14,320 bases of DNA, from assembly GCA_937981305.1 (NCBI GenBank), contig CALJPB010000184.1, forward strand, positions 1 to 14,320. Direction: 5' to 3'. The notes under the pieces are model-generated. The model was not told the DNA's origin. It saw only the letters and a list, made by a program, of their open reading frames with translations, and did not search any database. Made by a program: the position numbers and the translations under genes. This document shows, piece after piece, positions 1 to 14,320 of this stretch (its first letter is position 1; the number at the start of each line of letters is the position of its first letter). This DNA comes from an uncultured Selenomonas sp. GTDB taxonomy: Bacteria; Bacillota; Negativicutes; Selenomonadales; Selenomonadaceae.

Positions 1-545
1 GGCACGCCCTGCGCGTGCGCTGCCTGCGCGACCGCTTCGATGTCGATGAGGTCGGCGTTCGGGTTGCCGACGGTCTCGATGAAGACGCACTTCGTATTCG
101 GGCGGATCGCATCGGCAAAGCCCTGTGCGCCCGCCTTCGGATCGACGAAGGTCACGTCGATGCCCCACTCCTTCACCGTATGCGCGAGGAGGTTGTACGA
201 GCCGCCGTAGATCGTCTGCTGCGCGACGATGTGATCGCCCGCATGGGCGAGCCCCTGGAACGTCGCCGTGATCGCCGCCGCCCCCGAGGCAAACGCGAGT
301 GCCGCCGCGCCGCCCTCAAGCGCCGCGATGCGCTTCTCGAACACATCCTGCGTCGGGTTCATAAGCCGCCCGTAGATATAGCCCGGATCTTTGAGCGCAA
401 AGCGGTCGGCGGCGTGCTGCGCATTGTGGAACACGTACGAGGTCGTCTGATAGATCGGCACGGCACGCGCATCCGTGACGGGATCTGCCTCCTCCTGTCC
501 GACGCGCACCTGTAGGGTCTCAAAATGATAGTTTTTCTCGCTCAT
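1..545 (-). CDS. metY: O-acetylhomoserine sulfhydrylase (Cys/Met-metabolism PLP enzyme), N-terminal part
   Basis: The minus frame from the ATG at 545 stays open to the left edge (181 codons), so the gene is cut by the window. It begins MSEKNYHFETLQVRVGQE and carries family hallmarks: PIYQTTSYVF near residue 30, YGRLMNPTQDVFEKRIAALEGG near 58-79 (the Y-x-R-x-x-NPT region that contacts PLP phosphate in the neighbouring subunit), ASGAAA near 86 and YGGSYNL near 114. The PLP-binding lysine lies beyond the edge. Members join O-acetylhomoserine with sulfide or methanethiol to make homocysteine or methionine in the cytoplasm. The close start to OAH sulfhydrylases (long N-terminus with YHFETLQV) favours MetY over cystathionine gamma-synthase or MetB, though these are paralogous. 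A Shine-Dalgarno AAGGGGA at 553-559 supports the start. It has its own promoter, so it is not obligately cotranscribed with the upstream AraC gene. Confidence 0.9.
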   Translation of the reverse strand, partial: MSEKNYHFETLQVRVGQEEADPVTDARAVPIYQTTSYVFHNAQHAADRFALKDPGYIYGRLMNPTQDVFEKRIAALEGGAAALAFASGAAAITATFQGLAHAGDHIVAQQTIYGGSYNLLAHTVKEWGIDVTFVDPKAGAQGFADAIRPNTKCVFIETVGNPNADLIDIEAVAQAAHAQGV

Positions 546-567
546 GGATATTCCCCTTCTCTTGTGT

Positions 568-585
568 CAATAACATATTTTATTG
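568..585. promoter_or_regulatory. Inverted repeat at the metY transcription start, candidate operator
   Basis: CAATAA-N6-TTATTG is a perfect 6-base inverted repeat placed at about +1 to +18 of the predicted metY transcript. The position suits a repressor binding site for sulfur/methionine control. The regulator cannot be named from sequence; AT-rich palindromes can also arise by chance in a promoter this AT-rich. Confidence 0.35.
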
Positions 586-591
586 ATATGA

Positions 592-619
592 ATTATATAT
601 AAAATAGTGAATTTGTCAA
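592..619 (-). promoter_or_regulatory. Sigma-70 promoter of metY
   Basis: Read on the minus strand: TTGACA (614-619), 16-base spacer, TATAAT (592-597). Both boxes match consensus perfectly. The -35 box overlaps the stop codon of the araC-type gene (616-618). Predicted transcription start is near 585, leaving about 40 nt of leader, too short for a SAM riboswitch. Confidence 0.75.
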
Positions 620-1482
620 GAGGAAATTGTCTTCTGGTACTTCAGCGGCGAGATTCCCTTGTACTTTCGGAACGTCTTAATGAAGTAACTGATGTCGTTG
701 AATCCCGTGGCGAGGGCAATCTCCGTGATGTTCTCATCGCTGTGCGCGAGGCGGATGCACGCCGCCTCGATGCGGTAGTAGTTGAGGTAGTCGATGGGGC
801 TGCGGTGCGTAATCTTTTGAAAGAAGCGGCAGAAGTAGTTCGGCGTGAGTCCCGCCGCAGCGGCGAGGTCACGGAGGGTGAGCGGCTGGTCATAGGCATC
901 GTCGATGAGCTGGAACGTCTTTTTGAGCTGCATGACGCGCCGTCGGCTGCTCTCGCGCAGGGCCGCGTTCGGCGCGTGGTAGAGCTCGTGTTGGAGCACC
1001 GTCCCGAGGAAACCGTAGAGCAGCCCCGTCACGATGAGTTCGTAGCCCACACGCGCCTCCTTCATCGCCGTAAAGAGGCGGGCGATGATGTGCGGCACGT
1101 CGCGCGTCTCGCGCGGGATATGCTTGTTGATGAGCAGCTCATGCTCCAACACTTTGCGCACTCCCTCACTCGTGCACTGACTGCCGTGCAGGAGTTTTTT
1201 CATGTCGAAGACGATGCACTCGTAGACCGTCTCCGCATCCTGCGGTGCGCCGCCGTGCACAATGCCGTCGCGAATGAAGATGATATCCCCCGCCTGCGCC
1301 GTTACCATATCCTCGTTCAGCGCGAGTTTCAGCCCGCCGCATACGATATAGACAATCTCATACTCGATGTGCCAGTGGTAGGGCATATGAAAACGTGGAT
1401 GATTACAGTCGACATGATGGAATTCAATCGGAAAATCAAAGCGCCCACGCGTGCGAAATTCGTTATACCCCTCGTGTTTCAT
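616..1482 (-). CDS. AraC-family transcriptional regulator (cupin sensor plus AraC HTH), likely fucose-operon regulator
   Basis: 288 codons. The N-terminal half is a cupin-type sensor domain (HWHIEYEIVYIVCGG at 36-50, then QAGDIIFI at 63-70). The C-terminal 100 residues are the AraC double helix-turn-helix: first HTH at about 201-223 (LTLRDLAAAAGLTPNYFCRFF) and second at about 251-273, with the family signature around GFNDISYFIKTFRKYKGISP. Length and domain order are those of complete sugar-responsive regulators. Start ATG at 1482 is supported by Shine-Dalgarno AAGGGGGAG at 1489-1497. It is transcribed away from fucI across a 251-base intergenic region, the usual arrangement for a local AraC activator, so I infer control of the fucose operon. 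The ligand is not proven; L-fucose, L-fuculose or fuculose-1-phosphate are the plausible effectors. Confidence 0.88.
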   Translation of the reverse strand: MKHEGYNEFRTRGRFDFPIEFHHVDCNHPRFHMPYHWHIEYEIVYIVCGGLKLALNEDMVTAQAGDIIFIRDGIVHGGAPQDAETVYECIVFDMKKLLHGSQCTSEGVRKVLEHELLINKHIPRETRDVPHIIARLFTAMKEARVGYELIVTGLLYGFLGTVLQHELYHAPNAALRESSRRRVMQLKKTFQLIDDAYDQPLTLRDLAAAAGLTPNYFCRFFQKITHRSPIDYLNYYRIEAACIRLAHSDENITEIALATGFNDISYFIKTFRKYKGISPLKYQKTISS

Positions 1483-1658
1483 CGGCGGCTCCCCCTTGCT
1501 GTAAAAGATAATATTCTCATGTTTTTCATTAAGATCGTTATATTCTTCACGAATTCTTACGGTTGAGATAGCTTCTCAGGATATATTGAATTTTACAAAA
1601 AGATAAAATCGTACTATTTTTACATAGTATAACACAAGCATAAGACCATCTTCAACGC

Positions 1659-1664
1659 TATAAT
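1659..1664 (+). promoter_or_regulatory. -10 box of probable fucI promoter (weak -35)
   Basis: TATAAT matches the -10 consensus, giving a start near 1671 and a leader of about 60 nt. No recognisable -35 lies 16-18 bases upstream (the sequence around 1636-1642 is AAGCATA), as expected for a promoter that needs an activator such as the divergent AraC protein. Two direct AGCATAA copies (1637-1643 and 1668-1674) bracket the box. Confidence 0.5.
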
Positions 1665-1688
1665 ATCAGCATAACAGAAAAAACCAAA

Positions 1689-1709
1689 TATTCATCAATA
1701 GGATGAATA
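1689..1709. promoter_or_regulatory. Perfect inverted repeat in the fucI leader, candidate operator or mRNA hairpin
   Basis: TATTCATC-N5-GATGAATA, 8-base perfect arms with a 5-base spacer, lies at about +19 to +39 of the predicted fucI transcript and ends 12 bases before the Shine-Dalgarno (GGAGGA, 1721-1726). Position and symmetry suit a dimeric repressor site. A small leader hairpin is the alternative. Confidence 0.45.
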
Positions 1710-1733
1710 AAGTACGAAACGGAGGAAATCATC

Positions 1734-3524
1734 ATGGCAGAAACAAGGTGCATCGGAGGCTATCCCGTCATCGGTATTCGTCCGACGATCGACGGGCGGC
1801 GCGGCGTGCTCGACGTGCGCGGCGCACTCGAGGAGCAGACCATGGGCATGGCACGCGCAGCGAAGAAGCTCTTCGAGGAGAACCTGCGCTACACAAACGG
1901 CGATCCCGTGAAGGTCATCATCGCGGACTCGACCATCGGCCGCGTCCCCGAGGCAGCGGCGTGCGCCGAGCAGTTCCGCCGCGCGGGCGTGGACATCACA
2001 CTGACGGTCACGCCGTGCTGGTGCTACGGCTCGGAGACGATGGACATGGATCCGATGACGATCAAGGGGGTCTGGGGATTCAACGGCACGGAGCGTCCGG
2101 GCGCGGTCTACCTCGCCTCCGTCCTCGCGAGCCACGCACAGAAGGGGCTTCCCGCATTCGGCATCTACGGGCATGACGTGCAGGAGGCAGATGCCGAGGA
2201 CATCCCCGCCGACGTTATCGAAAAGCTGCTTCGCTTTGGACGCGCGGCGATTGCAGCCGCCACAATGCGCGGCAAGTCCTACCTCCAGATCGGCGCGATC
2301 ACCATGGGCATCGGCGGATCGATCATCAGCCCCGAGTTCTTCGAGGAGTACCTCGGGATGCGCGTCGAGTCGGTCGACGAGGTCGAGATCATCCGCCGCA
2401 TGAGGGAGGGGGTCTATGACCCGGAGGAGTACAAGAAGGCACTCGCTTGGACGAAGGAGCACTGCAAGGAGGGCTTTGACAAGAATCCCGAATTCGCACG
2501 CAAATCCGACGCGGAAAAAGAAGAGGCGTGGGAATTCGTCGTCAAGATGATGTGCATCATCAAGGATCTTTACAACGGCAACAAGAACCTCCCGAAGGGC
2601 TGCGAGGAAGAGGTGCTCGGCCACAACGCGATTGCGGGCGGCTTCCAGGGACAGCGTCAGTGGACGGACTTCTACCCGAACGGCGACTTTGCCGAGGCGA
2701 TGATGAACTCCTCGTTCGACTGGAACGGTGCACGCGAGCCGTATGTCCTCGCCACGGAGAACGACACGCTGAACGGTGTCGCGATGCTCTTCAACAAGCT
2801 GCTCACGAACCGCGCTCAGATCTTTGCCGATGTGCGTACCTACTGGAGCCCCGAGGCGGTCAAAAAGGCGACGGGCTACGAACTGGAGGGACGCGCAAAG
2901 GAGGGCAAGGGCTTCATCCACCTCATCAACTCCGGCGCGGCGTGCCTCGATGCGTGCGGCGAGATCAAGGACGGTACAGATTCCGTGATTAAACCGTTCT
3001 GGGAGCTCACGGAAAAGGATCAGAAGGCGTGCCTCGATGCGACCGAGTGGTGCCCGGCGGACAACGGCTATTTCCGCGGCGGCGGCTTCTCCTCCCGCTT
3101 CCTCACGCGCGGCGAGATGCCCGCAACGATGGTGCGCGTCAACCTCGTCAAGGGGCTTGGTCCCGTGCTGCAGCTCGTCGAGGGCTGGACGGTGAACCTG
3201 CCCGAGGAGGTCTCGGACAAACTCTGGAAGCGCACGGACTACACCTGGCCGTGCACCTGGTTCACCCCGCGTCTGACGGGTGCGGGCGCGTTCCGCTCCG
3301 CCTACGATGTCATGAACAACTGGGGCGCGAACCACGGCGCGATCAGCTACGGACACATCGGTGCCGACCTCATCACGCTCTGCGCCATCCTGCGCATCCC
3401 CGTCTGTATGCACAACGTCGCAGATGTCGATGTCTTCCGCCCCGCCGCATGGAACGCGTTCGGCATGGATGCGGAGGGACAGGACTATCGCGCCTGTGCC
3501 GCCTACGGGCCAATGTATAAATAG
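1734..3524 (+). CDS. fucI: L-fucose isomerase
   Basis: 596 codons, close to the 591 of E. coli FucI. The enzyme interconverts L-fucose and L-fuculose (and typically D-arabinose and D-ribulose) in the cytoplasm as a Mn-dependent hexamer. The metal ligands of the family are in place: E342 in [14 protein letters not shown]366 in [12 protein letters not shown] and H534 in NWGANHG, equivalent to E337, D361 and H528 of E. coli. Other near-identical family blocks are ATEWCPA (436-442), [13 protein letters not shown] (446-458), [11 protein letters not shown] (470-480) and the C-terminus [14 protein letters not shown]. Start is the ATG at 1734, 7 bases after GGAGGA at 1721-1726. It is the first gene of the operon and is followed after 14 bases by the kinase. 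Recognition is secure. Confidence 0.97.
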
Positions 3525-3538
3525 CATCGGAGGCTGCC

Positions 3539-5011
3539 ATGGCTACGGAAAAATGTATGCTCTCCTTCGACCTCGGTGCCTCGGGCGGCAGAGCCGTCCT
3601 GGGCTCGTACGACGGCAGCTGCATCCGCATGGAGGAACTGCACCGCTTCACGAACGATCCCGTCCACCTTGGACGCACGATGTACTGGGATATCCTGCGC
3701 CTGTTTCACGAGATGAAGCAGGGTCTGCTGAAGGCGCGCGGTCACGCGATCACGAGCATCGGCACGGACACATGGGGGGTGGACTTCGGACTTTTGGACA
3801 GCGACGGCTGTCTCCTCGAAAACCCCGTCCACTACCGCGACCGCCGCACCGTCGGCATGAGCGGCACAGCATTCCAAAAGATTTCACGCGAGGAGCTCTA
3901 CCGCATCACGGGCAATCAGATCATGGAGATCAACACTGTTTTCCAGCTGCTTGCCCTGAGACAGCAGCGTCCCGAGCTGCTCGCGCGTACAAAGACACTC
4001 CTGCTGATGCCGGATCTTCTCAACTACTTCCTCTCGGGGGAGAAGAAGACCGAGTACTCCATCGCCAGCACAACGCAGATGCTCGATGCACACCGCCGCA
4101 CATGGTCGAACGAGGTACTCACCGCACTCGACCTGCCCACGCACATCCTCACGGACATTGTGCCGACAGCAACGCCCATCGGGCGCATGACCGAGGAGCT
4201 GTCCGTCGAGCTAGGCATGGGGCGGCCCGACATCATCGCCGTCGCGGGGCATGACACGCAGAGCGCGATGGCAGGCGTACCCACGGGAGAGGAGGACTTT
4301 ATCTTCCTCTCCTGCGGCACCTGGTCGCTCCTCGGCACAGAACTCCGCGAACCGATCATCAACGAGACCTCCGCCGCGTGCAACATCACGAACGAGGGGG
4401 GCTGCTGCGGACGCATCTCCTTCCTCAAGAACCTCATCGGCCTCTGGCTGATCCAGGAGAGCCGCCGCCAGTGGATGCGCGAGGGACGCGAATATTCCTA
4501 CGGCGAGCTCGAACAGATGGCAGCGGCAGCGCCCACACAACGCTGCTTCATCCGTCCCGACGATCCTGCATTTCTGCCCTCGGGCGATATGCCCCTCCGC
4601 ATTCGTGCCGCCTGCGAGCGCACGGGACAGCCGGTTCCCGAGACCGTCGGCGAGGTCGTCCGCTGCATCGACGAGAGCCTTGCACTCTCCTACCGCGCAG
4701 CACTCACGGAGATCGAGACCTGCACCGGCAAACACTATGACAAGATCTACCTCATCGGCGGCGGTGTCCGGAGCCGCCTGCTCGCCCAGCTCACGGCGGA
4801 CGCGTGCGGACGCACCGTCCTCGCAGGTCCCGTCGAGGCGACCGTCCTCGGCAACCTCGCCCTCCAGCTCATCGCTGCGGGCGAGGTCAAGGATCTCGCC
4901 GAGGCACGCGCACTGATCCGCGCCTCCTCCGACATCACGGAGTACGAGCCGAAGAACACCGATCAATGGGACGTACATTTTGAAAAATGGAAGGGGCTGA
5001 ACCCATGCTGA
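3539..5011 (+). CDS. FGGY-family L-fuculokinase of the rhamnulokinase (RhaB) type
   Basis: 490 codons. FGGY carbohydrate kinase: phosphate-binding FDLGASGGRA at 10-19, sugar-site DTWGVDFGLLD at 77-87, catalytic-base motif AGHDT with D239 at 236-240, adenosine/phosphate region SCGTWSLLG at 258-266 and IGGGVRS at 406-412. Sequence blocks such as NPVHYRDRRTVGM, MPDLLNYFLSGEKK and ASTTQMLD are those of RhaB rather than of enterobacterial FucK. Because it sits between a fucose isomerase and a fucose mutarotase, I infer that it phosphorylates L-fuculose to L-fuculose-1-phosphate; L-rhamnulose may also be used. Shine-Dalgarno CGGAGG at 3528-3533 supports the ATG at 3539. Its last codons overlap the next gene's start by 7 bases (ATGCTGA), which implies translational coupling. 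The family is certain; the exact sugar is inferred from context. Confidence 0.92.
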   Translation: MATEKCMLSFDLGASGGRAVLGSYDGSCIRMEELHRFTNDPVHLGRTMYWDILRLFHEMKQGLLKARGHAITSIGTDTWGVDFGLLDSDGCLLENPVHYRDRRTVGMSGTAFQKISREELYRITGNQIMEINTVFQLLALRQQRPELLARTKTLLLMPDLLNYFLSGEKKTEYSIASTTQMLDAHRRTWSNEVLTALDLPTHILTDIVPTATPIGRMTEELSVELGMGRPDIIAVAGHDTQSAMAGVPTGEEDFIFLSCGTWSLLGTELREPIINETSAACNITNEGGCCGRISFLKNLIGLWLIQESRRQWMREGREYSYGELEQMAAAAPTQRCFIRPDDPAFLPSGDMPLRIRAACERTGQPVPETVGEVVRCIDESLALSYRAALTEIETCTGKHYDKIYLIGGGVRSRLLAQLTADACGRTVLAGPVEATVLGNLALQLIAAGEVKDLAEARALIRASSDITEYEPKNTDQWDVHFEKWKGLNPC

Positions 5012-5448
5012 AAGGCATCCCGAAAATCATCTCTCCCGCGCTGCTCAAGGTGCTCGCGGAAATGGGACACAGCGACCGCATCGTCATCGGCGACGGCAAC
5101 TTCCCCGCGGAGTCGGTCGGTAAGGACTGCATCGTCATCCGCGCCGACGGACACGGTGTCCCCGAACTCCTCGACGCGATCCTCACACTGTTCCCGCTCG
5201 ACCCCTACGTCGACAAACCGGTCAGCCTCATGGAGGTCATGCCGGGCGATCCCGTCGAAACACCGATCTGGGACACGTACAAGGAGATCATCGCAAAGCA
5301 TGACGTGCGCGGCGCAGCAGCCGTCGGCACGATCGAGCGGTTCCGCTTCTACGACGAAGCGCGCACGGCATATGCCATCGTCACGACGGGCGAAGCCGCG
5401 CTGTACGCCAACATCATACTGCAAAAGGGTGTCGTCACGGACACCTGA
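5005..5448 (+). CDS. fucU: L-fucose mutarotase (RbsD/FucU family)
   Basis: 147 codons from the ATG at 5005 (E. coli FucU has 140). The protein starts MLKGIPKIISPALLKVLAEM, like E. coli FucU, and keeps the AEMGHSD segment with the family histidine at residue 22, FPAES in place of FPAHS, VIRADGHGVPELLDAI and the C-terminal FYDEARTAYAIVTTGE. FucU catalyses anomer exchange of L-fucose so that the isomerase receives the form it uses. An in-frame ATG at 4987 would add six residues, but 5005 is better: Shine-Dalgarno GGAAGGGG lies at 4988-4995 and the resulting start matches the family. It overlaps the kinase stop by 7 bases. The aldolase follows after 12 bases. Confidence 0.94.
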   Translation: MLKGIPKIISPALLKVLAEMGHSDRIVIGDGNFPAESVGKDCIVIRADGHGVPELLDAILTLFPLDPYVDKPVSLMEVMPGDPVETPIWDTYKEIIAKHDVRGAAAVGTIERFRFYDEARTAYAIVTTGEAALYANIILQKGVVTDT

Positions 5449-5460
5449 AAGGTGAGAGAA

Positions 5461-6147
5461 ATGGACAATATAAAAGAAATCAAAGACGCGATCTGCGATG
5501 TCTGTCACAAGATGTGGCAGCTCGGCTGGGTCGCCGCGAACGACGGCAACGTCACCGTTCTCCTGGACGACGACACCCTGCTCGCAACGCCGACCGGCAT
5601 CAGCAAGAGCTTTATCACCCCGGAGAAGCTCGTCCGCATCGACCGCGAGGGCAACATCCTCGAGGCGAACGAGGGCTACCGCCCCTCCTCCGAGATCAAG
5701 ATGCACCTGCGCTGCTACAAGGACCGCGCAGACGTACGCTCCGTCGTGCACGCGCATCCCCCCACGGCGACCGGATTTGCCGTCGCGCACATCCCCCTGG
5801 ACCGCTACGACATGATCGAGACCGTCGTCTCGCTCGGCTCCATCCCCATCACCCCGTACGGCACGCCGTCCACATACGAAGTGCCCGAGGCAATCGCCCC
5901 CTACATCCAGGAACACGATGCCGTCCTCCTCGAGAACCACGGCGCACTCACCCTTGGGGCAAACCTCATCGACGCCTACTACAAGATGGAGACCCTCGAA
6001 CTGTTTGCCAAGATCAACCTCACCGCCTACATGCTCGGCGGACCGAAGGAAATCTCGCGTGCGAACATCGACAAGCTCGTGGGTCTGCGCAGCTTCTACG
6101 GCGTTCAGGGACGCCACCCCGGCTACAAGCACTACGCTGAGGACTAA
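5461..6147 (+). CDS. fucA: L-fuculose-1-phosphate aldolase (class II)
   Basis: 228 codons from the ATG at 5461. Zinc-dependent class II aldolase/adducin family: it cleaves L-fuculose-1-phosphate to dihydroxyacetone phosphate and L-lactaldehyde. The four active-site residues of E. coli FucA (E73, H92, H94, H155) have clear equivalents: E78 in PSSEIKMH, H97 and H99 in VVHAHPP, and H160 in LLENHGAL. The phosphate-site segment ANDGNVTV (26-33) replaces the common SxGN form. A GTG at 5452 is in frame but overlaps the Shine-Dalgarno AGGTGAGAG (5450-5458 region), so I prefer the ATG. RhaD and AraD/SgbE paralogues are related, but length and fuc context favour FucA. The lactaldehyde-processing enzymes (FucO, AldA) are not in the window. 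Confidence 0.93.
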   Translation: MDNIKEIKDAICDVCHKMWQLGWVAANDGNVTVLLDDDTLLATPTGISKSFITPEKLVRIDREGNILEANEGYRPSSEIKMHLRCYKDRADVRSVVHAHPPTATGFAVAHIPLDRYDMIETVVSLGSIPITPYGTPSTYEVPEAIAPYIQEHDAVLLENHGALTLGANLIDAYYKMETLELFAKINLTAYMLGGPKEISRANIDKLVGLRSFYGVQGRHPGYKHYAED

Positions 6148-6176
6148 CGATTACATCTAAGCAGAGGGTGATTCAC

Positions 6177-7514
6177 ATGACCAAAGATACTGCCGCCTTC
6201 ACGGCGGACGTGCGCGACGTGGACGATACCCCCGTCGTGCCCCACCGGTACCGCGTATACTTCTTCCTGCTCGTCTCCTGCTTTGCACTCTGGGGACTGC
6301 TCAACAACATGACGGACAACCTCGTTCCGTCCTTTGCCAAGATCTTCATGATTAAGGCGGTCGACTCCTCCCTCGTACAGGTCGCGTTCTACGGTGCATA
6401 CGCCGTTCTGGCACTCCCCGCCGCGTTTATCATCAAACGCTACTCCTACCGCATGGGTGTCCTCGTCGGCCTCGGCTTCTACATGATCGGCGCATTCGGC
6501 TACATCCCTGCGGCGATCCTGCAAAGCTACAACCTCTTCCTCGTCTCCATCTTCATCCTCGCGGGCGGTCTCTCCGTCCTCGAGACCACGTGCAACCCGT
6601 TCGTTCTCTCCCTCGGCGATGAGTCGACCAGCGTCCGCCGCCTCAACTTTGCACAGGCGTTCAACCCGCTCGGCTCGATGGCAGGACTCTTCCTCGCGAA
6701 ATACGTCATCCTCGCGCATCTGAACCCCGCCACCCTCGACGACCGACTCGCCATGAGCACGGAGGCACTCACCGCCGTCCGCGACGCCGAGCTCTTCTGG
6801 GTCTGCGTCCCCTACGTCGGGCTCATCCTCATCGCCTTCATCATCTGGATGTTCTTCTACCGCAGCACACTCAGCGACCGCGATGCGGACGAAAGCATGA
6901 GTGTCGGAGAGGCAATCAGCCGCCTCGTCGCCCGCCCGCGCTACGCCTTCGGCGTTGTCAGCCAGTTCTTCTACGTCGGCGTACAGATCGCCGTCTGGAC
7001 ATGGACGATCAAATACGTCATGGCGAACATGAACCTCGTCGAGGCGGAGGCAGCGAACTACTACATCTACTCCATCTTCCTCTTCATCGGCTGCCGCTGG
7101 ATCTGCACATGGCTCATGAAGTACATCGTCCCCGCAAAGATGATGGCAGTCTTTGCCCTCGGCGGCATCCTCTGCTGCCTCGGCACCATCTACCTCCCGA
7201 TCGAGACCTCCATCTACTGTCTCGTCGGCATCTCGGGCTGTATGTCCCTCATGTTCCCCACCATCTACGGCATCGCCCTGCGCGGCCTTGGTCCTGAAGT
7301 CAAGTTCGGTGCAGCCGGTCTCATCATGGCAATCCTCGGCGGTGCCATCATCACCCCGATGATGGGCGCACTCGTCGACGGCGGCACACTCTCCGGACTT
7401 GTCAGCGGCTTTACCCCCGAGATCGCCGCCATTCGCACCGCCTTCTACCTCCCCGTCCTCTGCTTTGCCGTTGTGCTCGCGTACTCGCTTGCCTTCCGAA
7501 ATGTGAAGGACTAG
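6177..7514 (+). CDS. fucP: L-fucose:H+ symporter, major facilitator superfamily
   Basis: 445 codons; E. coli FucP has 438. It is a 12-helix inner-membrane MFS permease of the FucP subfamily. The two acidic residues shown to matter in E. coli FucP (D46 for proton transfer, E135 for sugar/proton coupling) have equivalents at D47 in LLNNMTDNLVP and E136 in VLETTCNPF. A charged N-terminal tail of about 25 residues precedes the first helix (VYFFLLVSCFALWGLL), and a cytoplasmic loop near 225-245 separates the two six-helix halves. A GTG at 6168 is in frame, but the ATG at 6177 has Shine-Dalgarno GAGGGTG just upstream. It is the last gene of the operon, 29 bases after the aldolase, and a terminator follows. 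Related glucose/galactose (GluP) carriers are the main alternative; context favours fucose. Confidence 0.93.
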   Translation: MTKDTAAFTADVRDVDDTPVVPHRYRVYFFLLVSCFALWGLLNNMTDNLVPSFAKIFMIKAVDSSLVQVAFYGAYAVLALPAAFIIKRYSYRMGVLVGLGFYMIGAFGYIPAAILQSYNLFLVSIFILAGGLSVLETTCNPFVLSLGDESTSVRRLNFAQAFNPLGSMAGLFLAKYVILAHLNPATLDDRLAMSTEALTAVRDAELFWVCVPYVGLILIAFIIWMFFYRSTLSDRDADESMSVGEAISRLVARPRYAFGVVSQFFYVGVQIAVWTWTIKYVMANMNLVEAEAANYYIYSIFLFIGCRWICTWLMKYIVPAKMMAVFALGGILCCLGTIYLPIETSIYCLVGISGCMSLMFPTIYGIALRGLGPEVKFGAAGLIMAILGGAIITPMMGALVDGGTLSGLVSGFTPEIAAIRTAFYLPVLCFAVVLAYSLAFRNVKD

Positions 7515-7542
7515 GGAAAGATAAACATACATACCTCTCTCG

Positions 7543-7579
7543 GAGCTGCTGCAAAAATCGTGGCAGCTCTATTTTATTT
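7543..7579 (+). terminator. Rho-independent terminator of the fucose operon
   Basis: GAGCTGC (7543-7549) pairs with GCAGCTC (7563-7569), extendable by a T-G pair, loop about 11-13 nt, followed by the T-rich run TATTTTATTT. It lies 28 bases after the fucP stop. Confidence 0.75.
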
Positions 7580-7600
7580 CCCACTATTTAATAATTACTA

Positions 7601-7629
7601 TTGACAAATAAAACCACATAGTCTATAAT
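7601..7629 (+). promoter_or_regulatory. Consensus sigma-70 promoter of dps
   Basis: TTGACA (7601-7606), exactly 17 bases, TATAAT (7624-7629): a perfect match to consensus. The start is near 7636, giving a leader of about 68 nt. No convincing PerR or Fur box overlaps it. Confidence 0.88.
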
Positions 7630-7703
7630 AGCCAATGTCAACAGGATATGAAACAGATTCTTAAGGATCTGCGGTACAAAATGATGAAAGGGGATTTTCC
7701 ACT

Positions 7704-8156
7704 ATGTCACACGCAAATGATGCAAACCTTAACAACGCACTCAACACCTACATTGCCAACATCGGCGTCGGCTACATCAAGCTGCACAACCTCCACTGGA
7801 ACGTTGTCGGATCGCAGTTCAAGGCAGTCCACGAGTACCTCGAGTCGCTCTACGATGCGTTCGCGGACGTGCTCGACGAGACGGCGGAGCTGCTGAAGAT
7901 CGCGGGCGCACAGCCGGTTGCGAGCCTCAAGGGCTACCTCGAAATCGCGACGATCAAGGAGCTCGGCGACGAGGCGGTCGATCAGAAGAAGGCACTCGAG
8001 ATCACGCTTGCCGACCTCGAACTCCTCCGCGACCAGGCGCTTGAGATCCGCAAGGCTGCCGATGCACACGACTGCTTCGGCGTTGCCAACCTCATGGAGG
8101 ATCACGTCACGAACTACGCAAAGCAGATCTGGTTCCTCCGCTCCATGCTCGCTTAA
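7704..8156 (+). CDS. dps: Dps-family miniferritin (DNA protection during starvation)
   Basis: 150 codons, the usual length of Dps. The family makes 12-subunit shells that oxidise Fe(II) with peroxide at an inter-subunit ferroxidase centre and store iron; some also bind DNA. The centre is complete when numbered as in Listeria Dps: H31 in LHWNVVG, H43 in AVHEYLE, an acid at 47 (E), D58 and E62 in DETAELL. The N-terminus is short and lacks a lysine-rich tail, so strong DNA binding is not indicated by sequence. Start ATG at 7704 has Shine-Dalgarno AAAGGGGA at 7687-7694. It is a single-gene unit with its own strong promoter and terminator, and it is independent of the fucose operon. Some related entries are named ferritin-like or non-specific DNA-binding protein. 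Confidence 0.95.
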   Translation: MSHANDANLNNALNTYIANIGVGYIKLHNLHWNVVGSQFKAVHEYLESLYDAFADVLDETAELLKIAGAQPVASLKGYLEIATIKELGDEAVDQKKALEITLADLELLRDQALEIRKAADAHDCFGVANLMEDHVTNYAKQIWFLRSMLA

Positions 8157-8191
8157 TCCACCGCATCCTATCCTCCATTCCTATATATGAG

Positions 8192-8230
8192 GGACTGCTG
8201 CATGATATGCTCGTGCAGCAGTCCTTTTTA
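8192..8230 (+). terminator. Rho-independent terminator of dps
   Basis: A perfect 11-base stem, GGACTGCTGCA (8192-8202) with TGCAGCAGTCC (8214-8224), an 11-nt loop and TTTTT. It sits 35 bases after the dps stop. Confidence 0.92.
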
Positions 8231-8261
8231 GCGCGGAAAGACATACCCGCCTAAAAAGTCC

Positions 8262-8290
8262 TTGCCAATCCAACGTGCCTGTGCTATAAT
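8262..8290 (+). promoter_or_regulatory. Promoter of tRNA-Ser
   Basis: TTGCCA (8262-8267), 17 bases, TATAAT (8285-8290). Transcription would begin near 8297, about 16 bases before the mature tRNA. Confidence 0.8.
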
Positions 8291-8312
8291 GCGTCATGTC
8301 GCATAAGCGCAT

Positions 8313-8401
8313 GGAGAGGTGTCCGAGTGGTCGAAGGTGCTTGACTCGAAATCAAGTGTGGTGATGAGCCACCGTGGGTTCGAATCCCACCCTCTCTGCC
8401 A
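8313..8401 (+). tRNA. tRNA-Ser (anticodon CGA)
   Basis: A full cloverleaf of 89 bases including an encoded CCA (8399-8401). Acceptor GGAGAGG (8313-8319) pairs with CCTCTCT (8391-8397), with one G-T at the end. Discriminator is G8398, typical of serine tRNAs. Anticodon stem CTTGA/TCAAG encloses loop CTCGAAA with anticodon CGA at 8347-8349. A long variable arm with a GTGG/CCAC stem marks a class II tRNA. The T arm is GTGGG-TTCGAAT-CCCAC (8374-8390). It decodes UCG. It has its own promoter and terminator. Confidence 0.97.
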
Positions 8402-8410
8402 TTGAGAAAT

Positions 8411-8443
8411 AAGGCTTCCGAGGTTTTTCCTTGGAAGCCTTTT
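8411..8443 (+). terminator. Rho-independent terminator of tRNA-Ser
   Basis: AAGGCTTCCGAGG (8411-8423) pairs with CCTTGGAAGCCTT (8429-8441) with one G-T, loop TTTTT, then TTC. It begins 9 bases after the tRNA CCA end. Confidence 0.85.
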
Positions 8444-8532
8444 CTGCACGCATTTTTCGGTGAAAAACACGATTTTGGGCACACGAGATTTTGAACGTGG
8501 ATTTTGGCTTGCGTGAAATGATGGTTGCAACA

Positions 8533-8563
8533 TAAAAAACGAGGATGCCGTGCAGCATCCTCG
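8533..8563 (-). terminator. Rho-independent terminator facing left
   Basis: CGAGGATGC (8540-8548) and GCATCCTCG (8555-8563) form a perfect 9-base stem with a 6-base loop. Read on the minus strand it is followed by TTTTTT (8534-8539). It would end transcripts from the minus-strand Rpn gene, though it lies 236 bases beyond that stop codon. Confidence 0.75.
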
Positions 8564-8572
8564 CTTTCCTTT

Positions 8573-8790
8573 GTGCATCACTTTTGAGGTCTTTGCGGGA
8601 GGTTTGTGATCTCCTCTTCAGCGGACGAAATAGATAGCTTTGTACCTTGTACTGTGTCATTTTTGCAGAATATCCATGTCTATGGGGCTATCCATACCAT
8701 ATTATTTGCATGGACAGGGCGGACGAGGGGACAACAGCTCGGCGAACGGTGCATCACTTTTTGAAGAAGCATACGCTGAAAGTGATGCAC
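8573..8790. repeat. Three copies of GTGCATCACTTT (two direct, one inverted)
   Basis: The 12-mer occurs at 8573-8584 and 8749-8760, and its exact reverse complement at 8779-8790. The last two copies form a perfect 12-base inverted repeat with an 18-base spacer, just beyond the stop of the Rpn gene. The outer copies face each other across about 218 bases. No T-run follows the hairpin in either direction, so it is not a standard terminator. It could be a repeated palindromic element or the remnant of a small non-autonomous element. Confidence 0.6.
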
Positions 8791-8798
8791 ACCTCCTC

Positions 8799-9587
8799 TT
8801 AGAGGAGCGCTAAATATTTCGGTTGATCGACCTTGGCAATCTTCAGCGCGTCCATCGCAGCCTCGGCGGTGATGCCTAGGCTTGCAATGAGACTTTTGAT
8901 GTTCTTTAGGCGCTCCGTTTCTGCGCCCTGAACTTCTCCGTCTTTTCGGATTTCCTCCATTACCTTGCACATAGTTGCAACCCCCTTTTCATCTTCTTTG
9001 AAAAAGCGTACGCGTTCGGCGAGTACGTCGCTATACATATCGTTCGGATCACTGCAAAAGAAGTCGTGTATGAGATGTCCAAGCGGGCTTTCACTCTGGC
9101 ATTCCCCGTTGACATAGAGAATATGTGCACCGTCGTTAAATAGCTCCTCGGTGTCCTCGAATGTTCGGCGCACCTTATAGAGCGGTTTCCCTCGTTTCCA
9201 CACGTCATGTTCGGTGATAAAGATGACGTAGGTCTCCGGCAGATCGGGGAAGAGCGTTCCCTTACTGACCTCACGAGAATCAATCATGCTGCTGTTGAAT
9301 CTCGCACGACGGGGAATTGCCCCCTCGTCGCTGCGCTGGATCTCCACATCGTAGATGTTTTCGCCATCAGTCGCAAGGGCGTCGAATCGTACGGCACGTC
9401 CATAGAGATTTGGCACACTCTGCTGCGTAATGACCTCTGTCACACGCAGACGGTCATTGCCCAGCACAGCGCGAAGCACGACCTCCATACAGGGAATATT
9501 CCCGTCGAAGCAGCTGTTGAAGAAGGTATCATCGATCAGCCTAAGCTGTTTGATCTTTTCGAGGTATTCCTTGCGGCGCACATCCAT
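8799..9587 (-). CDS. Rpn-family PD-(D/E)XK nuclease / putative transposase
   Basis: 262 codons from the ATG at 9587. The protein belongs to the PDDEXK_2 group (recombination-promoting nuclease/YhgA-like). The N-terminus LRLIDDTFFNSCFDGN and the nuclease core RAVRFDALATDGENIYDVEIQ (64-84) show D69 and the E82-x-Q84 form of the catalytic signature, usual for this group. TYVIFITEHDVW (119-130) and a C-terminal helical tail follow. Family members cleave DNA and can stimulate recA-independent recombination in E. coli; others are treated as transposase-like. An upstream in-frame start at 9728 would overlap the serC terminator and promoter; the 9587 ATG has Shine-Dalgarno AAAGGAGGT and a promoter in place. 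It is a single gene with no partner, so I see no evidence of a larger system. Confidence 0.88.
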   Translation of the reverse strand: MDVRRKEYLEKIKQLRLIDDTFFNSCFDGNIPCMEVVLRAVLGNDRLRVTEVITQQSVPNLYGRAVRFDALATDGENIYDVEIQRSDEGAIPRRARFNSSMIDSREVSKGTLFPDLPETYVIFITEHDVWKRGKPLYKVRRTFEDTEELFNDGAHILYVNGECQSESPLGHLIHDFFCSDPNDMYSDVLAERVRFFKEDEKGVATMCKVMEEIRKDGEVQGAETERLKNIKSLIASLGITAEAAMDALKIAKVDQPKYLALL

Positions 9588-9615
9588 GCGCGTACCTCCT
9601 TTCTGATCTACTCCT

Positions 9616-9644
9616 ATTTTATCGGGAAAGCAAATCTTTGGCAA
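9616..9644 (-). promoter_or_regulatory. Promoter of the Rpn nuclease gene
   Basis: On the minus strand: TTGCCA (9639-9644), 17 bases, TAAAAT (9616-9621). Shine-Dalgarno AAAGGAGGT follows just before the ATG at 9587. This also argues against the longer reading frame starting at 9728. Confidence 0.75.
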
Positions 9645-9691
9645 GGGAATCGCTGCATTTATCCGTGCTTCCCACGTCTTTTCGCAGACAG

Positions 9692-9719
9692 AAAAGCGCG
9701 GCGTGCGTGCCGCGCTTTT
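9692..9719 (-). terminator. Terminator after the serC fragment (bidirectional in form)
   Basis: AAAAGCGCGGC (9692-9702) and GCCGCGCTTTT (9709-9719) form a perfect 11-base stem with a 6-base loop. Tails are A/T-rich on both sides, so it can work in either direction. On the minus strand it lies 16 bases after the serC stop. Confidence 0.88.
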
Positions 9720-9734
9720 TGTGTACAATCAAAA

Positions 9735-10310
9735 TCAATGCTTCTTACGGAACTCTGCCATAAACGCTGCGAGTTTCTCTACCCCTGCGAGGGGCATGGC
9801 ATTGTAGATGGAGGCACGCATACCGCCGACGCTGCGGTGTCCCTTGATGCCGCTGAGTCCAAGCTCTTTTGCGCGTGCGACAAATTCGTCGTTCAGGGAC
9901 TCGCTCGCGAGGCGGAAGGTGACGTTCATGCGCGAGCGGCTGCCCTTCTCTGCGTGTCCGCGATAGAATCCGTCGGATGAGTCAATGGCATCGTAGAGGA
10001 GGGCGGCTTTCTTTGCGTTCGCCTCGCCCATGGCGGCGAGGCCGCCGTGCTCCTTGATCCAGCGGACGGTCTTGCCGACCATGTAGATGGCGAAGACGGG
10101 TGGTGTGTTGTAGAGGGAGTCGTTCTTTTGGAAGGTGCTGTAGCGGAACATCGTTGGGAGTTCGGCGGGGCTGCTCTCGAGGAGTTTCTTCTTTGCGACG
10201 TTCAGGACAACACCCGCAGGACCGAGGTTCTTCTGCACGCCTGCGTAGATGAAGCTGAATTTCTTGAAGTCGAGGGGACGCGAGAGCATGTCGGACGACA
10301 TGTCGGCAAA
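9735..10310 (-). pseudogene. serC: Phosphoserine aminotransferase SerC, C-terminal half only
   Basis: The last ~192 residues of the long fused frame match SerC: ADMSSDMLSRPLDFKKF, then IYAGVQKNLGPAG with the PLP-binding lysine (K1122 of the fusion), LPTMFRYSTFQKNDSLYNTPP, and the C-terminal HRSVGGMRASIYNAMP. SerC (about 360 residues) transaminates 3-phosphohydroxypyruvate with glutamate in serine synthesis, and also acts in pyridoxal phosphate synthesis. The N-terminal ~165 residues, with much of the PLP-binding large domain, are absent and replaced by helicase sequence, so this copy should not be an active aminotransferase. Codon choice here is GC-rich like the fucose operon, and the stop and terminator are normal, which implies an intact serC in the source genome of the left part. 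Confidence 0.85.
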
Positions 10311-13300
10311 TAGCGGAACTTCGCGCAGAAGATGGGGGTTGCCCACCAAGAGGGTGCGTTGTCTGGCCCGAGTGAGCGCGACATTAAGTTTGCGGTCAAT
10401 GAAATGGCCGGTTTCATCGACAAACTGCGAATTGCAGAGGAAATTGAGCTGCGACTGTCGGCTCACGGTGAAACCGAAGATAATGGTTTCGCGCTCCGAA
10501 CCTTGAAATCGCTCCACCGTGTCGATGGTGATGCCGCTCAACTCCGGGCAAGCGAGGTGCAATTCGCGGCGTATGAGGGCAATCTGGTGGCGGTAGGGCA
10601 CGATGATGCCCAACTCCACCGTCCAATCTATCTGCGAAGGTTCGCACTCCTGGGTTTCCTGATAAAGTTGCCGACAGAGGTGGGCGATGAGTTGCGCCTC
10701 TGCCTGATTGGTCTTGGGCGTAAAGGTAGAACTCTCGTCGGGCACACAGGGGTAGAACATCACGCGACGATAGGACGAGACGACTCGCTGATGATCCAGC
10801 GGAATGGGGCGAAGCAGCCCTCCATAGAAATGGACATTGGCAAACCGAGCCACCTCGGGGTGCATACGTCCTTGGCGATGGAAAGCGTGCACGCAGCGCT
10901 CGGGAAGAATCTGGATGAGGCGTTCGAAGAGAGAGCACCGGCAGTTGGTCAACCCCATCTTGTGCAAACGGGCATCGTCGACTTGACTTTCCCTTTCGCT
11001 TTGTTGCACCACTGCCGGCAACTGCTTGTGATCACCGATGAAGACGAAGCGTTCGACAGCCAGTTGCCCATGATGTTCGGCCATAAGGAGAGGGAGGAGG
11101 TGGGGTTCAAGAAGCTGGGAGGCCTCGTCGATGATGGCCAGCGAGAAGTGCTTGAGCGCAAAGAGGGACGTGGCGGCCGACAAAGAGGCGGTAGTGCCGA
11201 CCACAACACGCACCGTTTGGAGGAGTTGCGTGATTTCTGCCACGTTCTTCTTCTCCGAAGTTCTGTTTTCCAGCAAATAAGGCAAGTATTCCTCGCTGCA
11301 AGTCAAGGCATTGCCGATGCGCAGGAAGTCCAGCCCGGCAGCCACAAGTTTGCTGCAGATTTCATCGACAGCGCGATTGGTGAAAGCCCCCAACAGGACC
11401 TGGTGTTCTGCGGTGGCAAGTTCTTCCTTCAATAGGCTCATCAGTCCATAAGAGGTTTTTCCCGTCCCCGGCGGTCCCACCAAGAGGAAGAAGTCGCGCG
11501 CCTGCACTGCCTTTTCGACCAGCGTGTCCAGTTCAGGCGTGTCAAAAGAAAGTTGCCGTTTACGCGTGGTGTCCACTCGTGCGGTGCAGGTGTGGGTGAG
11601 TAGTCGACGGCGGTGCTTTTCGCCGGAAAGGAAGGCATACAGGCCACGATAGAGCGCGGTCGCGCTGGCCTCCATCAAGTCCGGTTCAATCGCCCAAACG
11701 TGGGTGCTTCTTCGGTCGAAGATGCGCGGATTGGTCTGCGGGGCACGAAGACGCAACACGATGTGGGTAGGGGTGATTTCCCCAATCGTGGCACGAAATA
11801 CCATGCCTTCGCGCAAATCCGGTGTACACAGCGCTTCGTAGGAGTAGAAGACCACGATGTCCCCCTTTCGGAAGTTTGGGACGGTGGAAATGTCTTCCTC
11901 GCGAGGGGCGGTGAGGAAGAGCAGCCGCACCTCAAGGATGGCTCCGGTGGCACTCGTCTTGTAGCCTCCGCGGTCCAAACACAACTGAGGCATGATGTTG
12001 CCGGCCTGCATTTTCTCATCGAGGGTGGACAGCCAAGCAGCGGCAAAACCGCTCGCTTCTCTCTGAGAGGACCCGAGTTTTGCGCGCAACTGTTCGAGTG
12101 CCAAGAAGCGATGAAATCGGAAGAAGTAGGCACGCTCTTCGGGGGTGGCACTGCGGAAGACGTTGATAAAATCGAGATATTCAGGGAGCTTATAGCGCTC
12201 CCACAGCACTCCGCAGGAGAGTGTGTGCAACTGTTCGGGCGTAAACTCCTCAAAGAAGTCTGCACTCCCCCTTTCTGCAAACTCCAAGTCACGCACAACC
12301 ATCCGATTGCGCACTTCAAAAGCCTGCTGCAAGAGTTTGGGGACATTTTGCACACGTATCAGTCCCTCTTTGCCGGCATACTTCGAATAGAGCAAGTAGG
12401 CATTGATTTCGGAATAGCGCTTGTGGTGGGCGTAGTGGAGGATGGCCATATAGAGGAGGACCTGAATGCGATGGTGCAAGTGTGGGCCTTGAGTGGCAAA
12501 CTCTTTCTTTCCACTCTTTTGCTCAATCACCACGTCCAAATCTCTTGTAAGCAAGTCCATACGCCCCTGTACACCGAGCATTTCGCAGAAGAAGGAGGGC
12601 TCCAACAACACCTCTTCATGATTGTCGACGTGCAGTTCGGGGACAAACTGGCGTCCGACGAGGTTGTACAGATTTTGCTGTTGCTGTTGTGCTTCCTGAT
12701 GAAAGTCGGCAAGAGGCGCACTCTGGAGTGTGGCTGCGAGAGAGAGGGCGTTGGTCTTGAAGAAGCGCTGGATGCTTGCTGCATAGTTGAGCGGAAACTG
12801 ATGGACGGCTTCGTCCAAGAGTTGAGAGGCGAAGTTTCCCAGCAGGAGCGGTCGGCCGGTGGGCGCCGGCAAGAAGCGATGCACGACATGGAGGTCGGGC
12901 GTGATGCCAAAAGGCTGAAAGCACGATGAAATGGCGGTGACATCGACCAAATAGTCCGGCTCGACAATGATGAGTGCGGCTTCCAATCCCTCATCGCGGG
13001 ATTTCGTGTCAATGAGGTTCAACGACATACCGGGTCTCAGCAGATCATACAGATAGCGAAAATCCCGCGTTTCATCGGTCGTCGTCAGCCAGATCTTCAA
13101 AGCTGTCCCCGTGGGATGGTCGGCAGGAAGCACTTCGATGAAATCGGGATGTTTGGTCGCCAACACCACACGCCGAACGTGTGTGTCTATCTTCACTTCC
13201 TCTCTCCACGCTCGGTCTTGCTTGGGCAGCAACTGCTCCAAAGCTGCGGGTATCGCAGTTTCTTTAAGCCGCGCCACAAACTTGGCCAACAGACGCAAAT

Positions 13301-13595
13301 CATAAGGAAGCGCTTGCGACAGCGTGATTTCTTCGACTTGCTCTACCTTCGACATGCGCACACGAAAGTCATTGAGCCGACGATAGACCTCGGGCGGAAT
13401 GTTGAGATGCGTACATACATAATGCAAACGCGGAAACGTGCCCGACAGTCCCACCTCTGCTTCTGCGGTTGCTTCGTTGAGCAGTTCGACCAACAAGCGA
13501 TAGGCCATCACGGAACGCTGGCGTATCGTGAGGGTGGAGCTCGTCAAAGCCTGCTCGATTTCATCGAAGAAATAGGTTGCTGGAAGAAGAGGCAT
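9735..13595 (-). CDS. Dna2-like nuclease-helicase fused in frame to the C-terminal half of SerC (chimeric ORF)
   Basis: 1286 codons without a stop. Residues 1 to about 1092 are a superfamily 1B (Upf1/Dna2-type) helicase: Walker A GPPGTGKTS (707-715), Walker B IIDEAS (821-826), GDHKQLP (854-860), HRQGRMHPE (906-914), VERFQGSERE (1027-1036) and ALTRAR (1073-1078). Ahead of it is a PD-(D/E)XK nuclease module, GVQGRMDLL with D347 and VVIEQKSGK with E358/K360, then HHRIQVLLYMAILHY (374-388). I see no Cys cluster of the Fe-S Dna2/Cas4 type. Such proteins process 5' flaps, ends or stalled forks. The helicase appears to lack only a short C-terminal tail. From about residue 1095 the protein is SerC. 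Style and family suggest a Bacteroidetes origin for the helicase part. The ATG at 13595 is 19 bases after the DUF721 stop, so the two form an operon. I read the fusion as a join between two genomes. Confidence 0.85.
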   Translation of the reverse strand: MPLLPATYFFDEIEQALTSSTLTIRQRSVMAYRLLVELLNEATAEAEVGLSGTFPRLHYVCTHLNIPPEVYRRLNDFRVRMSKVEQVEEITLSQALPYDLRLLAKFVARLKETAIPAALEQLLPKQDRAWREEVKIDTHVRRVVLATKHPDFIEVLPADHPTGTALKIWLTTTDETRDFRYLYDLLRPGMSLNLIDTKSRDEGLEAALIIVEPDYLVDVTAISSCFQPFGITPDLHVVHRFLPAPTGRPLLLGNFASQLLDEAVHQFPLNYAASIQRFFKTNALSLAATLQSAPLADFHQEAQQQQQNLYNLVGRQFVPELHVDNHEEVLLEPSFFCEMLGVQGRMDLLTRDLDVVIEQKSGKKEFATQGPHLHHRIQVLLYMAILHYAHHKRYSEINAYLLYSKYAGKEGLIRVQNVPKLLQQAFEVRNRMVVRDLEFAERGSADFFEEFTPEQLHTLSCGVLWERYKLPEYLDFINVFRSATPEERAYFFRFHRFLALEQLRAKLGSSQREASGFAAAWLSTLDEKMQAGNIMPQLCLDRGGYKTSATGAILEVRLLFLTAPREEDISTVPNFRKGDIVVFYSYEALCTPDLREGMVFRATIGEITPTHIVLRLRAPQTNPRIFDRRSTHVWAIEPDLMEASATALYRGLYAFLSGEKHRRRLLTHTCTARVDTTRKRQLSFDTPELDTLVEKAVQARDFFLLVGPPGTGKTSYGLMSLLKEELATAEHQVLLGAFTNRAVDEICSKLVAAGLDFLRIGNALTCSEEYLPYLLENRTSEKKNVAEITQLLQTVRVVVGTTASLSAATSLFALKHFSLAIIDEASQLLEPHLLPLLMAEHHGQLAVERFVFIGDHKQLPAVVQQSERESQVDDARLHKMGLTNCRCSLFERLIQILPERCVHAFHRQGRMHPEVARFANVHFYGGLLRPIPLDHQRVVSSYRRVMFYPCVPDESSTFTPKTNQAEAQLIAHLCRQLYQETQECEPSQIDWTVELGIIVPYRHQIALIRRELHLACPELSGITIDTVERFQGSERETIIFGFTVSRQSQLNFLCNSQFVDETGHFIDRKLNVALTRARQRTLLVGNPHLLREVPLFADMSSDMLSRPLDFKKFSFIYAGVQKNLGPAGVVLNVAKKKLLESSPAELPTMFRYSTFQKNDSLYNTPPVFAIYMVGKTVRWIKEHGGLAAMGEANAKKAALLYDAIDSSDGFYRGHAEKGSRSRMNVTFRLASESLNDEFVARAKELGLSGIKGHRSVGGMRASIYNAMPLAGVEKLAAFMAEFRKKH
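10305..10325. other. Probable chimeric junction between two genomes
   Basis: The helicase motif LLVGNPHLLREVPLF (to residue 1096) passes directly into the SerC motif ADMSSDMLSRPL. The codons for V-P-L-F-A (10305-10319) could belong to either parent, since SerC also tends to have V/A-PL-x before ADMSSD. That suggests a join at short shared sequence. Third-position and codon style change on either side. Confidence 0.7.
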
Positions 13596-13614
13596 ATTGC
13601 TTTTGTCTGGATGG

Positions 13615-13905
13615 TCATATAAATCTAATATCGCTGATGACGTTGTGTTTGACTCGGCGATTGAGTTGCTCTATCAGTTGCAGTCGTTTCAAACTCAACT
13701 GTGTGCGGATGACAGGGGTGTGCACCCGCACCCAAAGGGTCGTGTCCTTCACATATAGGGGTTCTGTGCGGTTGGCCACGGCATCGGGCAGGACTTCGCT
13801 CCAAGCTTGCAGAACCCGATGTTGCAGTAGCGGGGTTTGGATTTGTGGGTCTTGAATGCACAAATCCAACACAACATCTACTTTATCTGGTTTTCTTCTT
13901 TTCAT
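13615..13905 (-). CDS. DUF721 / DciA-like protein
   Basis: 96 codons from the ATG at 13905; a TTG two codons upstream is in frame but less likely. The small basic protein starts MKRRKPDKVDVVLDL and has the DUF721 pattern: a helix with HRVLQAWSEVLPDAVANRT (about 31-49), then alternating strands LYVKDTTLWVRVHTPVIRTQL and a C-terminal helix-strand (QLIEQLNRRVKHNVISDIRFI). DUF721 includes DciA, which loads the replicative helicase in many bacteria lacking DnaC/DnaI; short Bacteroidetes members of about 100 residues are common. It is cotranscribed with the nuclease-helicase, 19 bases downstream. Assignment to the DUF721 family is fairly firm; the helicase-loader role for this protein is inferred. 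Confidence 0.72.
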   Translation of the reverse strand: MKRRKPDKVDVVLDLCIQDPQIQTPLLQHRVLQAWSEVLPDAVANRTEPLYVKDTTLWVRVHTPVIRTQLSLKRLQLIEQLNRRVKHNVISDIRFI

Positions 13906-14013
13906 TGTCAAGAAGAGGAATATGTGTATCTGAGAGAGGGGAAAGATTTATCTTTTAGAGACTTGCTGCTGTCTCAGAGGTAAATACGGCCAATCAGCCT
14001 CGCCAGCAAACGT

Positions 14014-14043
14014 GAAGGGCGTGTCTCGATGGACGCGCCCTTC
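14014..14043. terminator. Strong hairpin, probable terminator between the outer-membrane protein gene and the DUF721 gene
   Basis: GAAGGGCGTGTC (14014-14025) and GACGCGCCCTTC (14032-14043) form a 12-base stem with a single G-T and a 6-base loop. On the plus strand it is followed by TCTTTTA. On the minus strand, where the genes lie, the tail is ACGTTTG, so termination there is less canonical. It begins 28 bases beyond the stop at 14072. Confidence 0.6.
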
Positions 14044-14071
14044 TCTTTTAGTGGGATGATGCTGTGTTCAT

Positions 14072-14320
14072 TTAGAAACGATAGCCGAAAGTCAAAGCAA
14101 TTTGATGCCGATTCAAGTTGAGCCGTTGTGCCGGGAGGTCGTTACGCTCCGCTGCTGCCCCATCTTTATTATAGGCAAAGGGATAGACATCGGCTTTCTG
14201 GGTTTGGTATTGATAGGCAATGTCGGTGTAGAAGTTGGCACCCCGATAGCCCAAACCACAAGTGAAACGGTTGGTTGCCCCCAGATTGACATAGTCCGTG
14301 TTCGTCGCAAAGCGATAGGA
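14072..14320 (-). CDS. Outer-membrane beta-barrel protein, OmpP1/FadL/TodX-like, C-terminal fragment
   Basis: The minus frame is open from the right window edge to the TAA at 14072, giving the last 82 residues of a longer protein. It shows the alternating pattern of the closing strands of a barrel: RFTCGLGYRGANFYTDIAYQY, then QKADVYPFAYNKDG in a loop, then NRHQIALTFGYRF. It ends in Phe, the C-terminal signal read by the Bam machinery. The text resembles the end of Bacteroidetes OmpP1/FadL-type transport proteins, often labelled hemin receptors, which carry hydrophobic compounds across the outer membrane. Substrate cannot be deduced. A fragment this short leaves other barrel families possible. 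Confidence 0.7.
   Translation of the reverse strand, partial: SYRFATNTDYVNLGATNRFTCGLGYRGANFYTDIAYQYQTQKADVYPFAYNKDGAAAERNDLPAQRLNLNRHQIALTFGYRF

Follow-up and report, generated by a model that had tools for sequence, protein, structure and literature searches.

The window, as we call the whole 14,320-nucleotide stretch of DNA analysed here, has on its minus strand a frame of 1286 aa (9735–13595) that runs without a stop from an SF1 helicase into SerC. The two parts meet at 10302/10303. The features of the window are listed below.

1–9734, no strand assigned: remaining Selenomonas-type side, with fucose genes, a tRNA-Ser and an Rpn-family gene (comparison with Alloprevotella genome G001; GC3)
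9735–10202, minus strand: C-terminal part of serC from a Selenomonas-type bacterium, RPW clade (25-tip clade, support 0.999)
10203–10253, minus strand: interval containing a second seam, FIYAGVQKNLGPAGVVL (residue positions; N37)
10254–10302, minus strand: patch from a second Selenomonas lineage, DMSSDMLSRPLDFKKFS (28 of 28 residues as in P0160 and P0164)
10287–10302, no strand assigned: perfect hairpin with 7-base arms and a 2-base loop, coding SerC DMSSDM, its edge exactly at the join
10303–10319, minus strand: shared stretch, VPLFA and the GA of the next codon, with the join at its end (both parent proteins)
10303–13595, minus strand: Dna2-like SF1 helicase gene of Alloprevotella without its last 12 codons and stop (identity to Lung230; Pfam AAA_11/AAA_12; PDB DNA2)
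13596–14320, minus strand: continuation of the same Alloprevotella chromosome, with the upstream flank and the end of an unnamed gene at 14072–14320 (same single L001/L004 alignment)

The joined frame

Family models match both domains of the unbroken frame. AAA_12 ends at residue 1087 (Pfam) and the NCBIfam PLuB helicase model extends to residue 1098, and the SerC models cover residues 1091–1286, starting in mid-model (NF003764, 162–356 of 357; TIGR01364, 163–358 of 358). The in-frame join of helicase and SerC claimed in a sequence-only reading of this DNA is thus present in the sequence. That reading also held that the helicase has lost only a short tail and SerC its N-terminal half, and this is what we find: the last 12 native helicase residues (ELIDECVSPSVE) and residues 1–173 of the 362 in the SerC P0121 are missing. 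The helicase core is well matched (PF13087, 110 bits; PF13086, 95.2 bits), and PDB entries for DNA2 match best at helicase residues 693–869. The match to an N-terminal Cas4/RecB-like nuclease domain is weak (TIGR00372 cas4, residues 325–410, E 9.8e-5, 22.2 bits with a cut-off of 65). The SerC part falls short of a full-length protein, scoring 275.4 bits against the TIGR01364 cut-off of 443.6, and passes the NF003764 cut-off (279.3 vs 253) from the C-terminal half alone. This half has IYAGVQKNLGPAG with the conserved lysine of QKN, which presumably binds PLP, and aligns to full-length relatives.

The style of the DNA was said to change at the join, and both leucine codons and GC3 differ between its sides. 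The SerC half uses TTA or TTG for none of its 17 leucines, the helicase for 45 of its 148, and GC3 is 0.77 in the former and 0.66 in the latter.

Two parents from different phyla

Searching each side by itself, which the sequence-only reading had proposed, points to parents of different phyla, Alloprevotella and a Selenomonas-type bacterium. The claimed switch of family origin therefore stands, with a sharper edge than first noted. Against the whole window, the nearest genome compared (G001, Alloprevotella) gives one long match, 10303–14320 at 99%, plus two short matches; its match to 1–9734 is a single short one (138–250, 73%). A scan of genome contigs placed the locus in Alloprevotella sp. 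Lung230, with one and the same alignment for L001 and L004 (98.93% over 4020 columns), and 10303–14320 is 98.9% identical to this strain. The identity is complete over 319 bases from 10303, through the GA after VPLFA, and is lost at 10302. A difference-free run of 319 bases is ordinary for this alignment, with a longer such gap elsewhere (12570 to 12960). The Lung230 helicase is intact, having its own 12-residue tail and stop and a length of 1109 residues if translated from the start codon used in the window, and the native tail is also carried by P0001 (1109 aa), which stands for a cluster of 162 member sequences. Between the window helicase and that of Lung230 we count 26 base changes that are synonymous and 8 that are non-synonymous over 1098 codons, join codon included, which makes the Alloprevotella side an unremarkable relative of Lung230. 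In Lung230, the next long frame after the helicase starts at L004:9945, and its beginning reads like a transketolase. No Pfam or NCBIfam family was found in 14072–14320 at E 0.001.

On the other side, the closest full-length matches listed for the SerC half are proteins from ENA records (361–362 aa, identity up to 91%), and those named as Selenomonadaceae bacterium, Selenomonas sp. and S. ruminantium lie at 75–76% (best 120 of 7,999). Since genus names come only with matches at 75–76%, we infer the genus of the left-hand parent, which was probably a Selenomonas-type bacterium. The search for a source of the Selenomonas-side DNA found none in plasmid collections, phage collections or viral contigs. 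GC3 of the genes in 1–9734 is 0.78–0.85 (0.77–0.85 for the other genes of the whole Selenomonas-type side), except for 0.59 in the Rpn-family nuclease/transposase gene (8799–9728), which lies between tRNA-Ser and serC. The Rpn-family gene scores 45.5 with TIGR01784, under the cut-off of 52.1, and a search run without a positive control gave no match to it in 58 Alloprevotella-genus genomes. The Selenomonas-type parent may have acquired it recently. The tRNA-Ser (CGA) is on the plus strand at 8313–8401. An apparent fucose operon occupies 1734–7514, with FucI confirmed by a family profile; FucK, FucU, FucA and FucP, together with a Dps-like gene (7704–8156), are putative and were read from sequence. 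An AraC-type regulator (616–1482) is divergent to the operon, and the start of an O-acetylhomoserine sulfhydrylase-like gene (3–545) is cut by the window edge.

Shared stretch, patch and second seam

A short shared sequence had been proposed at the join, and at protein level VPLFA occurs there in both parents. It comprises helicase residues 1093–1097 and P0121 residues 169–173 and is the sole 5-mer common to P0001 and P0121; the intact helicase P0001 reads REVPLFAELIDE at this place and the intact SerC P0121 reads GGVPLFADMSSD. VPLFA is found here in 92 of the 113 full-length SerC matches examined. With VPLFA in both intact parents the frame stays open across the join, and an in-frame fusion set by a shared peptide requires no selection. 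If the parent SerC had VPLFA, its DNA would agree with the helicase at an estimated 13 or so of 17 bases by the window's codon usage. The exact run beside the join, estimated by draws from the same codon usage instead of the DNA of the Selenomonas parent, was 2 bases in 14,142 of 20,000 draws, 5 in 4,295 and at least 8 in 1,563. Of 15 rows of serC DNA from the Alloprevotella genus, 12 agree with the helicase stretch over a run of at least 5 bases that reaches the end of this stretch. The window contains 15 hairpins of this kind. The one at 10287–10302 has a modest fold (z −1.69); it was noticed after the fact and is thus a hint.

The SerC half has a second seam, which was missed in the first reading of the sequence. 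It lies 49–100 bases from the join, and the first SerC residues are those of a different Selenomonas lineage. Specifically, the 28 residues FADMSSDMLSRPLDFKKFSFIYAGVQKN (FADMSS...QKN) agree with P0160 and P0164 at 28 of 28 positions, and with P0121, P0122, P0124 and P0133 at 22, 22, 21 and 23, respectively. The remaining 163 SerC residues reverse this pattern, matching P0121 at 77/82 and 73/81 and P0160 at 58/82 and 57/81. The minimum length of the patch is 49 bases (10254–10302) and the maximum about 117 (10203–10319); its far edge falls where the two lineages have the same sequence. By protein comparison the patch ends within FIYAGVQKNLGPAG, a serC stretch that is strongly conserved. The first residue in agreement with the RPW clade but with no patch carrier (P0164, P0242, P0280, P0282) is N37 (10200–10202).

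In a tree of the later SerC part, the window is nested in the 25-tip clade, whose other 24 tips are all RPW; an earlier tree of 120 SerC sequences gave the same nesting. The nearest relative of 9735–10202 is P0122 (93%). The node uniting the window with P0121–P0123 has a support of 0.496, and the successive nodes beyond have 0.889, 0.724, 0.819, 0.92, 0.912 and 0.0 before the 0.999 of the 25-tip clade. As a control, 22 residues (MSSD...GV) of each sequence were compared with those of the sequence closest to it over the later part, using 185 SerC sequences, window included, that are the top listed matches (best 120 of 7,999 and best 120 of 1,036); seven SerC sequences were dropped because anchors were missing or they were too short. 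The window has 6 mismatches and the other 184 have 0–4; when the comparison is limited to the 57 that are similarly diverged, the window included, the remaining 56 have 0–3.

The Alloprevotella's own serC was considered as a source of the SerC half or of the patch and rejected, as it is complete and located elsewhere (G001:C12, 364 aa). For the patch, 15 rows of Alloprevotella serC (36 loci) read IYGGAQKN and not IYAGVQKN, and these rows, two of which are the same gene, match 26–39 of the 49 patch bases. P0160 is a partial protein of 194 aa from a Selenomonas sp. MAG; it has the same patch sequence and starts at the V of VPLFAD, and the end of its contig might be a branch point in assembly graphs. 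Four other truncated SerCs (P0127, P0129, P0138 and P0140; 184–189 aa) start at internal methionines, P0140 one methionine further on than the others, and are not claimed as the same join. In P0121, residues 63 and 175 have no methionine between them; had serC been cut at any point in this interval, a gene caller could have settled on a start of that kind.

Origin of the join

With the last 287 residues as query, a search in which a true fusion is expected to outscore the listed matches had 4,387 matches, and none of the 120 that were listed combines the helicase with the aminotransferase Pfam families. A helicase-type match beside a SerC-type match was found in none of the 58 Alloprevotella-genus genomes, 47 of which had any match; three contigs have both types (G004:C6, G043:C1 and G056:C1), about 98 to 270 kb apart. 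The fusion hence did not recur in these genomes or among the listed protein matches, and a 33-base pattern across the join had no match in viral contigs. A word test for VALTRAR plus QKN, which picked out 30 of 311 proteins, all of helicase type, was set aside in favour of the Pfam families, QKN being too short for SerC.

The sequence switches abruptly between two intact parents at a place where they share sequence; for the Selenomonas parent this was seen in protein comparisons only. We therefore put a probability of roughly 0.87 on the window being a chimeric contig of Alloprevotella DNA (10303–14320) and Selenomonas-type DNA (1–10302), made in the test tube or the assembler and not in a cell. 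The sequence-only reading had regarded a chimera as the simplest explanation, and the parents from two phyla, VPLFA at the join and the lack of a second fusion in our searches support it. The join would have formed where up to 17 bases encode VPLFA(D/E) in both genes, late in the helicase gene and midway through serC, and where the two reading frames happen to agree; the match is seen at protein level and would extend to DNA. Between the Alloprevotella and the Selenomonas-type DNA would sit the 49- to 117-base patch of the other Selenomonas lineage. Such an arrangement suggests stepwise switching of templates, or of assembly-graph paths, at locally shared sequence, and the small hairpin with its edge at the join may have aided it. 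Two seams, three sources and two phyla within ~100 bases fit an amplification, library or assembly chimera. Assembly-graph errors require a shared k-mer, and the usual assembly k-mers exceed the probable identity at the join; a plain graph error is thus not well supported, and the balance leans towards an amplification or library chimera. Several points count against a chimera: a single odd read is usually not enough to build a contig, this strain might naturally carry the patch as an allele, and of ten intact SerCs compared, six have VPLFA here, four have no 5-mer in common with the helicase and one (P0128) has a second (LNIPP).

The same join could have arisen by real recombination between co-resident bacteria, through uptake of DNA that was joined at a short shared stretch, an origin that we consider improbable. 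Joins at short identity arise in cells too, both halves are undamaged open frames, and besides the hairpin at the join there is the Rpn-family gene about 570 bases away, whose NCBIfam name is recombination-promoting nuclease and which also counts against a chimera. However, recombination would need two seams and three sources within about 100 bases and would split serC in two, the join is in none of the 58 Alloprevotella-genus genomes and none of the 120 listed protein matches, and a search of the window for repeats of at least 20 bases found none. Its more explicit form, in which illegitimate recombination across phyla inside a cell put an already mosaic Selenomonas serC in frame with the Alloprevotella helicase at a chance match of at most 17 bases beside a hairpin, is slightly less probable still. 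There may instead have been two events, the serC patch being a natural mosaic allele and only the Alloprevotella join artificial. This course of events, whose share is counted inside that of the artefact, is unlikely but deserves some weight: within-gene exchange is common among related species, and the patch is complete and in frame. Yet the patch starts at the join itself and is in none of the other 24 clade sequences, and among the 120 listed of 1,036 matches no protein exceeds 89% identity over the 55 residues across the second seam. That the frame encodes a working helicase–aminotransferase fusion protein is scarcely credible. In its favour are an open frame and good scores for both domains, but SerC is without its first 173 residues, no other member exists among the 120 listed of 4,387 matches, and the parts differ in codon style and phylum.

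Under the preferred reading of a chimeric contig, the 1286-aa protein would exist in neither organism; the apparent fusion protein is probably an artefact and no new enzyme, and as biology the feature is most likely not real. The locus carries a warning, as an in-frame 'fusion' can arise without selection if the shared stretch codes for the same peptide in both parents, so a frame that stays open across a join does not count as evidence of a real protein. Before any claim of gene transfer or fusion is built on this contig, it should be cut at 10302/10303.

Compared with the Alloprevotella DNA2/NAM7-type helicase (P0001; Lung230), the window has the same gene over residues 1–1097, but where the former ends in its native tail and a stop the window frame ends in SerC. 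A Selenomonas-type SerC such as P0121 shares its C-terminal 189 residues with the window frame; it is full length, whereas the window is without the N-terminal half and its first ~17 SerC residues are of another lineage. Chimeric contigs in metagenomes combine two organisms in one contig and show a sharp shift of composition and of best relative. Inter-species contigs of this kind (e.g. PMC7299287, PMC8171044) are among the closest known systems, and the window differs from them in an identity that is probably shorter and in a third-source patch between the two parts. For chimeras of multiple displacement amplification, junction complementarity of at least 2 bp is reported in 76.8% of 475 cases, up to 21 bp, and inversions within one genome in 85% of the 475 (PMC1855051). 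The window resembles these chimeras in having its junction at short shared sequence; they come mostly from one genome, whereas the window joins two, and its orientation is hence uninformative.
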